Shown: one piece after another, positions 16,947-37,012 of the stretch
How positions within the stretch are numbered: the first letter of the stretch is position 1
How the letters are laid out: the number at the start of each line of letters is the position of its first letter
Virus record (IMG/VR): IMGVR_UViG_3300012931_000041
Coordinates: 1-38,916 of that record
Reading direction: 5' to 3' (one strand)
Origin: a virus
DNA: 38,916 bases
Made by a program: the position numbers and the translations under genes
Notes under the pieces: generated by a model
The model's input: the letters and a program-made list of their open reading frames with translations, nothing else
Told to the model about the DNA's origin: nothing
Database searches by the model: none

Positions 16947-17321
16947 TTGAAAGCTCTCACGGTAAAAAACCCCTGGGCATATTTGATATGCTCGGGGGCG
17001 AAGGACATCGAGAACCGATCATGGCGCACATCGTTTCGCGGGCGCGTGCTCATCCACTCGGCCGCCGCCCTCGATCTGCGCGACTTCGTCCCGCGCGTCG
17101 ACTGCCCCGCGCCCCGCTCGGCTATTATCGGCTCGGTCGAGATAGTCGACTGCATCCGCGACAGCTCAAGCCCGTGGGCCTTCGCCGGATTCTGGCACTG
17201 GGTTTTGTGCGACCCCGTGCTCTTCGAGCGCCCGATACTAGACATTCGCGGCGCCCTCTCGTTTTGGGAGATACCGGAAGGAATAAGTATTCCGGTTTGC
17301 CGAAACTGTCTTGTTGAGTGA
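16947..17321 (+). CDS. ASCH-domain protein
   Basis: 124 residues beginning at a TTG codon, with GAGGT upstream and only four bases after the preceding stop. The N-terminal 40 residues carry ASCH hallmarks: LTVKNPWAYLICSGAKDIENRSW, then R(T)SFRGRVLIHSAA. ASCH is a PUA-like beta-barrel that binds RNA. Members include nucleic-acid hydrolases and RNA-interacting regulators. GSVEIVDCIRDS and HWVLCDPVLFERPI in the C-terminal half fit the rest of the barrel. The last 84 bases overlap the 3' end of the convergent minus-strand ATPase gene. The substrate is unknown. Confidence 0.88.
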   Translation: MKALTVKNPWAYLICSGAKDIENRSWRTSFRGRVLIHSAAALDLRDFVPRVDCPAPRSAIIGSVEIVDCIRDSSSPWAFAGFWHWVLCDPVLFERPILDIRGALSFWEIPEGISIPVCRNCLVE

Positions 17322-18317
17322 TTTAAGATTTTTGTTCGGAGAAGTGTGCCCGGCTCTTACTAGAATCCAGTTTTTTTCTCTCATCCATGATTTTGCAAAC
17401 CCCTTATGTGAGGTTGTAATTCCCACGTAATCGATTTTCGAGTTGTAATAATTTGCACAGAAATTAACTAGGCGGGAATTTAACCCTATCCCTTGGTAAT
17501 CAGGGAGCACCACGAATCGATGACCCTTCATCATGGACAATCCCATCGTGTTAGGGAAATGAATCCATGCGCTGAACCCAATGGGCTTGCCGTGGTAGAA
17601 CGCGACAAACTCATCAGCCGAGGAGCTGATGTCGTGATTTAGATAGTGATAACGCCTAAACATTCCCCATAACCCTTTAACTTTGCGAACTTCAATATCG
17701 ATTTGGGGGCGACAAACCGACCCCCTTGTCATCTGCATTTCGTCTGTCGAGAAAACCCAATCCGGCTCAAGCCAGTCGATTACGTCGTAGTGACAGGTGA
17801 CGGCGATGAACTTCTTACCCGATCGCCTGACGCTACGCTGCAACGCGAGGCTTCCGATCTGCGCGACCTCGCGGTCAACGACCGACGTATACTCGTCGAA
17901 GATGATGATCTCTTGATCTTGGAGGATCGCCCGCGCGAGGTCGACGCGCATTTTCTCGCCGTTCGACAGAACTTCGTAGGGCTTGAGCCAGGAAGGCGGC
18001 GAGGCGAAGCCGACCGAGGACAGCACGCCGAAAAGATCGACGCTCGGGATCTTCTTGTCGAAGTCATCTATCACGCAGGCGGACTTATACTTGAATTTCG
18101 CGAAGTATTCGCCGAAAAGCTCGCGGGCTATCGTCGTCTTGCCGGTCCCCGACTTGCCGACGATGACGCCGATATTCCAGGACTCAGGCGGCGTGATCTC
18201 GCCCGTGAAGCGCTCGTCGAAACGATCCTCGGAGATGTCGAATTGATCGTAGAGCTGGGCGACACGGAAAGACTTCGTGCCGATCTCGTTATGTTTCACA
18301 ATGTCGAAATTCGGCAT
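17238..18317 (-). CDS. ABC-type ATPase fused to GNAT-like (Mom-type) acetyltransferase
   Basis: 359 residues. The N-terminal 200 residues form a soluble ABC ATPase: Walker A GKSGTGKTT (about 54-62), signature LSNGEKMRVDLARAI, Walker B EIIIFDEYTS followed by SVVD, and a switch His in VTCHYDV. No transmembrane segments. The C-terminal 150 residues fit a GNAT fold: FRRYHYLNHDIS, AFYHGKPIGFSAW, GHRFVVLPDYQGIGLNSRLV (acetyl-CoA binding loop) and a final strand. The layout recalls phage Mu Mom-type DNA modification enzymes coupled to an ATPase. It is co-transcribed with the ParB-like gene and overlaps it by 22 bases. A DNA or RNA modification role is inferred, not shown. Confidence 0.82.
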   Translation of the reverse strand: MPNFDIVKHNEIGTKSFRVAQLYDQFDISEDRFDERFTGEITPPESWNIGVIVGKSGTGKTTIARELFGEYFAKFKYKSACVIDDFDKKIPSVDLFGVLSSVGFASPPSWLKPYEVLSNGEKMRVDLARAILQDQEIIIFDEYTSVVDREVAQIGSLALQRSVRRSGKKFIAVTCHYDVIDWLEPDWVFSTDEMQMTRGSVCRPQIDIEVRKVKGLWGMFRRYHYLNHDISSSADEFVAFYHGKPIGFSAWIHFPNTMGLSMMKGHRFVVLPDYQGIGLNSRLVNFCANYYNSKIDYVGITTSHKGFAKSWMREKNWILVRAGHTSPNKNLKSLNKTVSANRNTYSFRYLPKREGAANV

Positions 18318-32204: not shown

Positions 32205-32293
32205 AGCGCGAGGCGGGAGTCGAACCCGCGATTGATAGGCCCAGTGGTTTACACTGTCGAAAGCCCTTGCCTCCTCCGTATGGCTCCTCGCGC
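32205..32293 (-). ncRNA. tRNA-like RNA, non-canonical
   Basis: Read on the minus strand: a 7-bp acceptor (GCGCGAG at 32293-32287 with CTCGCGC at 32212-32206), a D-arm-like GCC..GGC with a GG-containing loop, an oversized central arm, and a perfect T-arm (GCGGG, TTCGACT, CCCGC). The length (89 nt) would suit a class II tRNA. The central arm does not form a normal 7-nt anticodon loop, however. It holds TTTCGAC followed by a hairpin CAGTG/CACTG. No CCA is encoded. It may be a decayed tRNA, a tRNA with an inserted hairpin, or a tRNA mimic. Confidence 0.6.
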
Positions 32294-32329: not shown

Positions 32330-32713
32330 CTACCTCGCTTCGATCGTGGGCAGAATCACCGACGGCTTGAAGATGACCTTATAGCTGCTCGCCGAGACGT
32401 TCTTCGACTCGAGGGCCTCGGAGAAATACGTCACGTTGTCCGAAAGGCCGAGGTAGTGCTTGAGGTATTCGCCCGAATCGGTCTTGACCGTCACGACGAG
32501 ATCGCCGTCGTCATCCACGATGATCGCCAGCTTGCCCTCGATGGTTAGGATGTAGTCGCCAGTAATGCCGTTGTAGAAAACGACGCGACGGCTAACTTGG
32601 AAATTCTGCTCAGCGCGTTCGAGATTCGATCGCACTACGCTCGCGTCGTTGCATCCCACGAAAGACACGGCCAGGCAAAGCACTGCGAGTGCGACAAGGA
32701 GAAATCTTTTCAC
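32330..32713 (-). CDS. Phage beta-sandwich-type lipoprotein
   Basis: 127 residues. Signal peptide of about 20 residues (KRFLLVALAVLCLAVSF) with a lipobox ending VGC at Cys 21, so it is lipidated and anchored in a membrane. The mature part matches a small lipoprotein type I recognise from several phages: NFQVSRRVVFYNGITGDYIL, IEGKLAI, YLKHYLGLSDNVTYFSEAL, then VIFKPSVILP. Such proteins are expressed early; a role in superinfection exclusion is plausible but unproven. It follows tRNA-Met. Confidence 0.8.
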   Translation of the reverse strand: MKRFLLVALAVLCLAVSFVGCNDASVVRSNLERAEQNFQVSRRVVFYNGITGDYILTIEGKLAIIVDDDGDLVVTVKTDSGEYLKHYLGLSDNVTYFSEALESKNVSASSYKVIFKPSVILPTIEAR

Positions 32714-32739: not shown

Positions 32740-32811
32740 TAGGGGCGAGAGGGCTTGAACCTCCGGCGCGCGGGATATGAGCCCACTGCTCTACCTCTGA
32801 GCTACACCCCT
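32740..32811 (-). tRNA. tRNA-Met (anticodon CAT)
   Basis: Full cloverleaf on the minus strand. The acceptor stem is AGGGGTG with CGCCCCT, followed by discriminator A. The D-arm is GCTC, AGAGGTA, GAGC. The anticodon arm is GTGGG, loop CTCATAT, CCCGC. The variable loop has five bases, and the T-arm is GGAGG, TTCAAGC, CCTCT. The anticodon at loop positions 3-5 is CAT. No CCA is encoded. The A1:U72 end does not settle the choice: initiator tRNA usually has a mismatch there, so elongator Met or Ile (lysidine CAT) are the candidates. Confidence 0.93.
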
Positions 32812-34154: not shown

Positions 34155-34387
34155 CCGACTACCTCGGCAAGGCGCTCGCGCTCGTGGCCCGGCCGGTCGA
34201 AGAAGGCGGCGGGCAACTTGGGCCGCAGCGTCTTGTAGGCCAGGCGGAAGGCCGTGGCGTCGGAGTCCAAGGCGGCGAGCTTCGACAGGAGCTCCCCGAC
34301 GCGAAGGGCTTGGGCGGCGCCGTGCTGGCCTTCGATGAGGAAGCCGATCAGATCGGACCAGTCTTGCTCGGTCATGTCGGTGGTCAT
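34151..34387 (-). CDS. Small helical protein, function unknown
   Basis: 78 residues with ATGA overlaps on both sides. Helical start (EQDWSDLIGFLIEGQHG), then a longer helical region with many Leu and Ala. No motif recognised. Confidence 0.6.
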   Translation of the reverse strand: MTTDMTEQDWSDLIGFLIEGQHGAAQALRVGELLSKLAALDSDATAFRLAYKTLRPKLPAAFFDRPGHERERLAEVVG

Positions 34388-34845
34388 GCGCGGGTCTCGG
34401 GGCCGTTCTCAGCGATCAAGCGGAGCTGACCGAAGCCCTTTTCAGCGATGGCGGGCGCTGCCTTCTCGTCCCGCGGCTTCGCGGAAACGATGACGAGGGG
34501 AAGCCCGAGGAGCTCGCGGAGGTCGTCCCGGCTGATCTTGTCCTTCTCGGCCATAAGGCGAAGCTCGCGGAGCTGGGCGCCCGAGGGGAGCCGAGGGCTT
34601 CCGCGCTTGGCGGATAAGGCCTTCCCGTTTTCGGGAAGCTGACCTTCCCCTTCTTGGGAAGGTTTCTCGATCATCGCTCGCTTCGGAAGCTTCTCCATGA
34701 TCTTGATGGCTTCCTGCCGCGTGAACTCGAGGCGGATGCCATTCTGAGCGCGCCCTGGGAAGAGCTCCTCGACAGTCTTGCGGACGGTCTTGTGGTTGCA
34801 GCCCGCCGTGCTGGCGATTTGCCGGACGGTCATCTTGTCGCTCAT
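34384..34845 (-). CDS. HTH regulatory protein of antirepressor type
   Basis: 153 residues. The first 55 residues contain an HTH (MTVRQIASTAGCNHKTVRKTVEELF) that resembles the N-terminal HTH of several phage antirepressors. A basic linker and a helical C-terminal part (GSPRLPSGAQLRELRLMAEKD) follow. ATGA overlap with the XRE gene before it, so the two regulators are made together. Target unknown. Confidence 0.7.
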   Translation of the reverse strand: MSDKMTVRQIASTAGCNHKTVRKTVEELFPGRAQNGIRLEFTRQEAIKIMEKLPKRAMIEKPSQEGEGQLPENGKALSAKRGSPRLPSGAQLRELRLMAEKDKISRDDLRELLGLPLVIVSAKPRDEKAAPAIAEKGFGQLRLIAENGPETRA

Positions 34846-35832: not shown

Positions 35833-35856
35833 AAAGACCGGGGAGGAAGGCCCCGG
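35826..35856 (-). terminator. Intrinsic terminator on the minus strand
   Basis: Stem CCGGGG/CCCCGG (35838-35843 with 35851-35856) with a 7-nt loop. Read on the minus strand it is followed by TTTTTATTTT over the end of the plus-strand gene. No U-tract on the plus side. A near relative sits at 36184-36207. Confidence 0.6.
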
Positions 35857-35872
35857 CCAGTCGGAGTAGTCT

Positions 35873-35974
35873 ATGCGGCACTCCGGGGCCGGTCCTGAGG
35901 TAGCGAATCTCGGGCTAGTTGATGGGATGGCTGAGGAAGACGTCCACGAAGAGTGGGGGCCAGGGCCAAAATAA
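35873..35974 (+). CDS. Candidate very small protein
   Basis: 33 residues (MRHSGAGPEVANLGLVDGMA, then an acidic end) with GGAG seven bases before the ATG, downstream of two plus-strand genes. Normal codon use. It overlaps the transcribed strand opposite the minus-strand RNA region. Support is modest: start site and codon choice only. Confidence 0.4.
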   Translation: MRHSGAGPEVANLGLVDGMAEEDVHEEWGPGPK

Positions 35975-35998
35975 AACGGCCGGTATCAACCCGGCCGT
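35971..35998 (-). terminator. Terminator of the tRNA-like RNA
   Basis: A perfect 8-bp stem (ACGGCCGG with CCGGCCGT, 35998-35991 and 35983-35976), 7-nt loop, then TTTTATTTT. It starts two bases after the tRNA-like fold, so the two form one transcription unit on the minus strand. Confidence 0.88.
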
Positions 35999-35999
35999 A

Positions 36000-36148
36000 T
36001 ACAATGGGGAGAGTCGAACTCCCTTCAACTGTCGCATATCAGTATAGGATGGGCAGGATCCACTTTCTCCGCCCTCGCCCTTATGTTCTGTAAGGGCCCA
36101 GCATCCACTGATAAACGGTTAGGCGCAATCCTCCTTCCGCCGCATTGT
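36000..36148 (-). ncRNA. 149-nt tRNA-like structured RNA
   Basis: The first and last bases pair (ACAATG at 36148-36143 with CATTGT at 36006-36001), and a T-arm (GGGAG, TTCGACT, CTCCC) stacks directly on that stem. A D-arm-like hairpin (GGCG, 12-nt loop, CGCC) follows the 5' strand. The place of an anticodon arm is taken by a long irregular helix: TATCAGT with ACTGATA, GGAT with ATCC, GGGC with GCCC. Its tip is a 7-bp hairpin GCCCTTA/TAAGGGC. A TATAAT -10 places the start at 36148. Too short for a tmRNA with a tag frame; not a normal tRNA. A tRNA mimic or Y-RNA-like molecule is possible. Confidence 0.8.
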
Positions 36149-36154
36149 GAATAT

Positions 36155-36160
36155 ATTATA
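36155..36160 (-). promoter_or_regulatory. TATAAT box of the tRNA-like RNA
   Basis: A perfect -10 (TATAAT) seven bases before the A at 36148. No clear -35 is seen; the region 17 bp upstream is the U-tract of the late terminator. The coincidence of the predicted start with the first paired base supports an independent transcript. Confidence 0.7.
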
Positions 36161-36170
36161 CTCCGGTTAT

Positions 36171-36207
36171 GGAAAAAAGAAAAGGCCGGGGAATGAGGAC
36201 CCCGGCC
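36171..36207 (-). terminator. Late operon terminator
   Basis: An 8-bp stem GGCCGGGG/CCCCGGCC (36184-36191 with 36200-36207) with an 8-nt loop, followed on the minus strand by TTTTCTTTTTT. It lies after the last lysis gene (36338), which marks the end of late transcription. Confidence 0.9.
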
Positions 36208-36337
36208 AGTCCCTTTTCGCCCGTGGGTCGGGGGCCGCTTCGTGTTTTCGGTGGCCTGCCATAGGCAGCGACTACGGTCTGCCTCGTTCCCGGCGCCTCC
36301 GGGTCGGTGGCAAGCAAGCGGCCTGCCGGCGCCCGTC

Positions 36338-37012
36338 CTAAGGTATCGACTCCAAAGGCAATTTTATCTTTAGCGGCCAGAGCTCCACGACAAGCCAGAC
36401 CCCGCCCCCGGCCGCCCCTACCCCCGCCCCCCATGCCGCGCCGTGTAGAGCGTCCGTGCCCAAGGCTGGGCCCGCGAGGGATCCGGCGAGGCCGAGGGCG
36501 CCCGAGAGGCCGAAGGCTCGCCATAGGCCCGATTTCAGTCTTCCAGCCCTAATTCCCCGACCCGCCTCCACCTTGTAGGTCGCGAAGTCCGTCGACAAGG
36601 ACGCCGAGGCGGCCTTCGAGGCGTCGAGCAATATCGAGATCTCCATCAAGGCCGTCTGCGACGTCTGCAGCTCCGCTTCCGCCTTGGCCAGCCTGTCCGA
36701 TAAGTCCGTCGATTCGCGCTTGGCGGTCTCGTTCTCGAGCTTCAGCGAGGCGACGATAGTCCGCCAGCTCTCGACTTGCGCCTCGGCTTGCGTCTTGCGC
36801 AGCTCGAGCCTTTGCCTGAGCGTCGTCGAGTCGTCCAGCGAGGATTGCGCTGTCTCGAGCATACTGAGCTTCGGCTGAAGCGAGGGCGCGACCGGCGCCT
36901 CCGGGGCTGAGGTAGACGTATCCGAGGGCGAGGCCTGCCCCCAGGAGGAGGCAGCCGAGATACCGAGGCCAGCGATGAGCGCCCAGATAAGCAATGATCG
37001 TTTTAAGCACAT
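36338..37012 (-). CDS. Spanin-like coiled-coil membrane protein
   Basis: 224 residues. The first 26 residues look like an export signal (MCLKRSLLIWALIAGLGISAA). Residues 50-160 form a heptad-type coiled coil (LRQRLELRKTQAEAQVESWR; LKLENETAKRESTDLSDRLA). The C-terminal 55 residues hold two Gly/Ala-rich membrane segments. The final gene of the lysis cassette, near a two-membrane-spanning protein, fits an inner-membrane spanin role, bridging envelope layers at lysis. An overlapping frame of 153 codons is discussed separately. Codon third positions favour this frame. Confidence 0.7.
   Translation of the reverse strand: MCLKRSLLIWALIAGLGISAASSWGQASPSDTSTSAPEAPVAPSLQPKLSMLETAQSSLDDSTTLRQRLELRKTQAEAQVESWRTIVASLKLENETAKRESTDLSDRLAKAEAELQTSQTALMEISILLDASKAASASLSTDFATYKVEAGRGIRAGRLKSGLWRAFGLSGALGLAGSLAGPALGTDALHGAAWGAGVGAAGGGVWLVVELWPLKIKLPLESIP
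36549..37010 (-). CDS. Embedded alternative-frame ORF (possible second spanin part)
   Basis: 153 codons in the next frame of the spanin-like gene, from a GTG at 37010. It predicts an N-terminal membrane helix (YLGCLLLGAGLALGYVYL), a charged helical rod and a Gly-rich end (RDLQGGGGSGN), which recall Rz-type inner spanins. Overlapping spanin genes are known. Third-position base use is less biased here than in the main frame, so a chance shadow remains likely. Confidence 0.25.
   Translation of the reverse strand: MLKTIIAYLGAHRWPRYLGCLLLGAGLALGYVYLSPGGAGRALASAEAQYARDSAILAGRLDDAQAKARAAQDASRGASRELADYRRLAEARERDRQARIDGLIGQAGQGGSGAADVADGLDGDLDIARRLEGRLGVLVDGLRDLQGGGGSGN

Follow-up and report, generated by a model that had tools for sequence, protein, structure and literature searches.

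A predicted tRNA-like phage RNA in which a branched domain occupies the place of the anticodon arm, comparable in design to T4 rnaC

Among the products of the tRNA region of phage T4 are the stable RNAs rnaC and rnaD, neither of which has a known function (PMC3014915). Both have been classed as late and validated by northern blot (PMC9697503), and the role of rnaC has been unknown for decades. Modules resembling tRNA are also carried by bacterial RNAs. The acceptor/T-arm module of tmRNA possesses the loop TTCGA, while the Y RNA YrlA has D-, T- and acceptor-like arms within an RNA of 90-150 nt, a permuted topology and a gene near Ro60; its 5’ and 3’ ends pair as a long basal stem to which Rsr binds (the Ro60-binding end stem), with the tRNA-like module being internal (PMC8394870). 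This tRNA-like domain is not cut by a DNA-damage-induced nuclease and has been proposed to be a competitive inhibitor of it (PMC7790460). The pseudo-tRNA tRNA-Other of Bacillus cereus is chromosomal, has no role in translation and is a tRNA-like element inside larger regulatory transcripts, flanking a genomic island (PMC3399842).

The T4 rnaC molecule (species 1 RNA, 139 nt) was found to consist of an acceptor stem, a canonical T-arm (CCGGG-TTCGAAT-CCCGG), a variable-like hairpin and a long arm. Covariation was investigated among eight T4-like phages at the 22 pairs of the acceptor stem, variable-like hairpin and T-stem. Changes on both sides were found at 11 of these pairs, compared to 4.8 in shuffles, with none of 500 shuffles reaching that number. 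Standard pairs made up 90% of the cells at the 22 pairs, the signal was abolished by sliding the partner, and two mismatches in the acceptor helix were kept in most rows. In Enterobacter phage SonariX (L023), the rnaC homologue at 254-348 is annotated, and also called by ARAGORN, as tRNA-Met, while many T4-like records have no annotation for the homologue or place hypothetical proteins over it.

The stretch of DNA analysed here (the window) is a 38.9-kb virus contig, IMG/VR record IMGVR_UViG_3300012931_000041 at its full length of 38,916 nt, apparently from a virus of bacteria. Joining of the contig ends (positions 1 and 38916) gave a single 250-aa frame running through a tandem repeat, and a terminal repeat of 15 nt is present; on these grounds, a complete and circularly mapped genome is probable. 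Its proteins were found to include a PBSX-type terminase, portal, HK97-type capsid, Erf, SSB and an antirepressor, with no integrase among the proteins tested. A tRNA-like RNA, designated TLS1, was located after lysis-like genes and before two plus-strand genes without family assignment and HTH regulators. The features of this locus, along with two further tRNA genes of the phage, are as follows.

36000..36148, minus strand: TLS1, tRNA-like RNA of 149 nt, from its predicted fold and shuffle statistics
36143..36148, minus strand: 5’ strand of the acceptor stem, ACAATG, paired with 36006-36001 (probability 0.83-0.93)
36122..36141, minus strand: D-arm-like hairpin, GGCG-GAAGGAGGATTG-CGCC, with a 12-nt loop that contains GG (probability 0.77)
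36027..36120, minus strand: branched domain (~94 nt) at the place of the anticodon arm, made up of helix TATCAGT/ACTGATA and two hairpins
36007..36023, minus strand: T-arm, GGGAG-TTCGACT-CTCCC, with a canonical T-loop (probability 0.70)
36001..36006, minus strand: 3’ strand of the acceptor stem, CATTGT, abutting the T-stem without a gap
36155..36160, minus strand: -10 box TATAAT, 6 nt ahead of the first paired base, with a predicted +1 at 36148
35976..35998, minus strand: intrinsic terminator of TLS1, an 8-bp stem followed by TTTATTTT, the stem beginning 2 nt past the fold
36184..36207, minus strand: terminator of the upstream late operon (lysis-like genes), dividing it from TLS1
32205..32293, minus strand: TLS2, a second odd tRNA of 89 nt, absent from the preliminary description; Rfam tRNA score of 31.9 bits against a cut-off of 29
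32740..32811, minus strand: ordinary phage tRNA-Met (CAT), identified with ARAGORN and Rfam, for comparison

Read along the minus strand, the order of TLS1 is ACAATG-C-(GGCG 12 nt CGCC)-T-(branched domain)-GAA-(GGGAG TTCGACT CTCCC)-CATTGT-A. In the predicted fold, a perfect acceptor of 6 bp is stacked on a T-stem of 5 bp (GGGAG at 36023-36019, CTCCC at 36011-36007). The minimum free energy was -53.9 kcal/mol (z -2.6), with none of 200 shuffles being as stable, and z was -3.3 when TLS1 and its terminator were folded together. In the full transcript, to which the pair probabilities listed above apply, the long arm reached 0.97-1.0 and the two hairpins of the branched domain 0.9-1.0 and 0.75-1.0, all named helices having pair probabilities of at least 0.7 except for the end pairs of two inner helices. 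One of the two hairpins carries a 7-nt loop, CAGAACA. TLS1 departs from real tRNAs in having a linker of 1 nt (not 2) between acceptor and D-stem, an A/T-rich acceptor of 6 bp, and no encoded CCA. The tRNA-like elements given in the preliminary description were all found on the minus strand at the positions it had assigned, and the long helix that it had noted in the place of an anticodon arm corresponds to the branched domain predicted here. At the level of the predicted fold, the architecture is confirmed as real and unusual.

Five copies of TATAAT were found on the minus strand of the 38.9 kb, and the copy at 36160-36155 is placed so as to set +1 at 36148, in agreement with the earlier proposal that the RNA starts at its first paired base. 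The proposal that a terminator follows two bases past the fold was likewise borne out, with the stem running from 35998. A recognisable -35 box was absent upstream of TLS1 and a promoter scan gave no call, so the promoter is regarded as likely, not certain. The terminators bracketing the TLS1 unit (36184-36212 and 35836-35863, minus strand) were observed to have GACTGGCCGGGG in common. The adjoining terminator-ended stretches at 36337-36176 and 35970-35830 were also considered as structured RNAs, but were unconvincing (z -1.5 and -0.9, respectively).

Comparison of TLS1 to T4 rnaC showed that both are phage-encoded, with an acceptor on a canonical T-arm, no usual anticodon arm and one greatly enlarged arm. 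They differ in the layout of these parts, as rnaC has its long arm at the place of the D-arm and its T-arm is preceded by a variable-like hairpin, whereas TLS1 has a short D-like hairpin and its large arm at the anticodon place. Furthermore, rnaC sits in a tRNA cluster and is a stable RNA seen on northern blots, while TLS1 is a predicted stand-alone RNA that has signals of its own. A covariance model of rnaC (R1) recovered T4 rnaC at 176.6 bits and did not match TLS1 as a whole, so the likeness is one of design rather than of evident descent.

Distant blastn searches against phages and plasmids identified no homologues of TLS1, and its exact T-arm/acceptor pattern was not found in viral contigs. 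Relatives of five window proteins were sought in viral contigs and the resulting records searched at the DNA level, with TLS1 not found in them. Relatives of the phage itself among viral contigs were few and fragmentary, the best syntenic record (L003) stopping just short of the position of the RNA. Complementarity of the TLS1 loops to translation starts of the phage was no better than that of shuffled loops.

An architecture search, requiring a perfect 6-bp acceptor that adjoins a T-arm and has its partner 60-200 nt upstream, and optionally a D-arm, returned two matches in the window, namely TLS1 and 32293-32205 (TLS2). The latter, which first surfaced in a T-arm search of the window, has a 7-bp acceptor, a D-arm, a T-arm with the T-loop TTCGACT and approximately 15-17 extra nt in the anticodon arm. 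Its score of 31.9 bits was obtained from a 300-nt stretch; the whole-window Rfam scan with default filters and default ARAGORN both missed it, and ARAGORN with introns called it at a 97% threshold. Together with tRNA-Met, the phage thus holds a normal tRNA gene, a second whose anticodon arm is modified and a tRNA-like gene in which this arm is replaced. Alignment of TLS1 with TLS2 was limited to the T-arm, with a score equal to the shuffled mean, and homology was not supported. The Shine-Dalgarno-like hexamer GGAGGA is present in both D-loops (TLS1 36129-36134, TLS2 32272-32277, minus strand); its use as a ribosome decoy was retained only as a lead, the hexamer being no commoner in the window than expected by chance. 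An archaeal-type intron (bulge-helix-bulge) in TLS2 was rejected, as inspection found a bulge on one side only and both phage and promoter look bacterial. Between tRNA-Met and TLS2 lies an ORF (32330-32713, minus strand) that matches phrog_478, the family named recombination directionality factor, over the full length (3e-43), and its protein has a lipoprotein-like start.

Three further tRNA-like RNAs were found upstream of the terminase in a Lactobacillus prophage region reached via its terminase (L002, 8337-8740). One of about 48 nt appears by eye to lack an anticodon arm and to consist of acceptor, D-arm and T-arm; the other two gave tRNA scores of 28.5 and 23.9 bits. A few other Lactobacillaceae genomes (L030 to L033; for example L030 1358-1622) were found to carry elements that are related or similar, with lengths of 103 to 142 nt. 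These elements are rare and fast-diverging. Prophage status was inferred from neighbouring genes for L002 only. Like TLS1, these RNAs possess acceptor, D-arm and T-arm with the middle enlarged or missing, and default ARAGORN is silent on them; unlike TLS1, they are arrayed, lie in some cases beside normal tRNAs and are closer to tRNA. Similarly, tRNA-Other of B. cereus is a tRNA-like element outside translation, as is proposed for TLS1, but differs in its chromosomal location within regulatory transcripts (PMC3399842).

Across the whole window, default ARAGORN and Rfam matched only tRNA-Met (32811-32740), and Rfam at E values up to 10 gave no tRNA, tmRNA or Y RNA match within 35850-36300. When examined against the tRNA family (RF00005), TLS1 did not reach the cut-off of 29 bits that TLS2 passed. 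It has the 5-bp T-arm with loop TTCRANY joined to an acceptor, but lacks a 7-nt anticodon loop on a 5-bp stem with U33, the 94-nt branched domain being there instead and its only 7-nt loop having A at the U33 place. Neither ARAGORN nor Rfam detected a tmRNA and no tag reading frame was recognised; relaxing ARAGORN produced a tRNA or tmRNA overlapping TLS1 only alongside dozens of false calls. A 27-codon frame from GTG across the branched domain was considered as a tmRNA-like tag and rejected, the ARAGORN tmRNA appearing only at a 70% threshold among 106 calls. TLS1 is outside every family tested. ARAGORN and Rfam agree with its earlier description as an autonomous tRNA-like phage RNA distinct from ordinary tRNA and tmRNA, and the Rfam scan proposed at that time, now performed, returned no confident match to either. 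Its designation as undescribed holds for the sequence, which is new, though not for the kind, since T4 rnaC is an already known analogue of comparable architecture (PMC3014915).

Several alternative explanations were weighed. Identity with a bacterial Y RNA or a reduced tmRNA, both of which carry a tRNA-like module, and the former at a length compatible with TLS1, is largely refuted and was judged extremely improbable. The ends of TLS1 form an acceptor stem adjoining the T-arm, rather than the permuted topology and Ro60-binding end stem of YrlA (PMC8394870), and no TROVE/Ro60 domain was found in the record, while a control search was positive in Deinobacterium chartae; the link to Y RNA, Ro and PNPase suggested previously is accordingly not upheld. 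In comparison with tmRNA, TLS1 is 149 nt long and has no tag frame with a resume signal, no CCA and no Rfam match, with the ARAGORN call being confined to the lowered threshold described above. A chance association of a T-loop-like hairpin and a 6-nt complementary repeat, with an unrelated promoter and terminator beside them, would fit with the lack of TLS1 homologues in the searched collections and of a -35 box, but is very unlikely. A T-arm with a contiguous 6-bp acceptor was expected at 0.08 per shuffled window and at only 0.03 once a D-arm was added, and the placement of TATAAT has odds of approximately 4 in 10,000 (five copies per 38.9 kb, three positions allowed).

TLS1 could also be a remnant of an attachment site, its T-arm and acceptor 3’ strand being a copy of the 3’ terminus of the host tRNA at which integration takes place, as temperate phages often carry tRNA 3’ ends of this type (PMC9897764). 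The directionality-factor-family protein at 32330-32713 would be consistent with this, but a complete 5’ acceptor strand and a D-hairpin are also there, the proteins tested included no integrase and the record appears to be circularly complete. To our knowledge, no usual bacterial tRNA fits an ACAATG/CATTGT acceptor without CCA, and this origin is highly improbable. A former tRNA gene that received insertions in its anticodon arm and is now neutral is a less strained proposal, in that TLS2 still scores as a tRNA, indicating that tRNA genes of this phage lie at differing distances from normal. Nevertheless, the acceptor and T-stem of TLS1 are perfect, its new central domain is stable (z -2.6), it has promoter-like and terminator signals of its own and the Rfam tRNA family gave no match even at E 10, making decay rather unlikely. 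TLS1 and TLS2 may instead be decoys for a host defence that targets tRNA, titrating an anticodon nuclease or other tRNA sensor, given that both keep the elbow and acceptor, have altered anticodon arms and lack a cleavable anticodon loop, and that the tRNA-like domain of YrlA offers a precedent as a proposed nuclease inhibitor (PMC7790460). No target system is known and no tRNA-repair genes were among the proteins tested. Recognition by most anticodon nucleases also involves the anticodon loop, and this specific role is considered unlikely.

The acceptor/T-arm stack with its T-loop and D-loop is read by RNase P, RNase Z, the CCA-adding enzyme, EF-Tu, TrmA and TruB. An RNA that keeps this half and drops the anticodon could be processed, stabilised and bound by tRNA enzymes without decoding. 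In the best explanation, TLS1 is probably a phage-encoded tRNA mimic in which the new domain acts as effector or decoy, a general design shared with T4 rnaC. TLS1 would be an independent small-RNA gene of the phage, transcribed from the first acceptor base to its own terminator. It would retain the acceptor/T-arm stack and the D-loop/T-loop elbow, the part of tRNA that host enzymes recognise, with a branched domain swapped in for the anticodon arm, so that it could not decode. Through its tRNA half, the RNA would most likely be trimmed at the 3’ end, stabilised and docked on a host factor that handles tRNA, candidates being a processing or modification enzyme, a tRNA-cleaving nuclease or a ribosome-associated factor, and the branched domain may then serve as decoy or effector. 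We infer the transcription, maturation, binding, decoy or effector role and targets from what is directly supported, namely the predicted fold, its improbability by chance, the signals in the sequence, TLS2 and the covariation of T4 rnaC.

More tentatively, unrelated phages may repeatedly evolve stand-alone or arrayed tRNA mimics in which acceptor and elbow are kept and the anticodon arm is rebuilt or deleted. T4 rnaC, the Lactobacillaceae prophage RNAs, TLS1 and TLS2 would then possibly form one functional class that probably opposes a tRNA-handling factor of the host or works by way of it, and this class would have been overlooked because tRNA finders discard its members. Default tRNA searches miss or mislabel such RNAs, which constitutes a blind spot. 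If this is true, then with an independent phage of the rnaC design and the loosely similar Lactobacillaceae RNAs, what seemed peculiar to one phage would become a subject for comparison, namely the reason for which phages retain the tRNA elbow and acceptor yet lose the anticodon.

Other observations were made on the coding content of the window. Two long frames on the minus strand (36338-37012 and 36549-37010) overlap by approximately 460 bp in different registers, are both protein-like and look like nested Rz/Rz1-type lysis genes; overlapping frames in the same arrangement are present at 8863-9481 of L003. Additionally, the protein encoded at 17238-18317 (minus strand) possesses ABC-ATPase and GNAT domains and weakly matches the Mads defence protein mad3, with a weak match to mad1 at 34384-34845.
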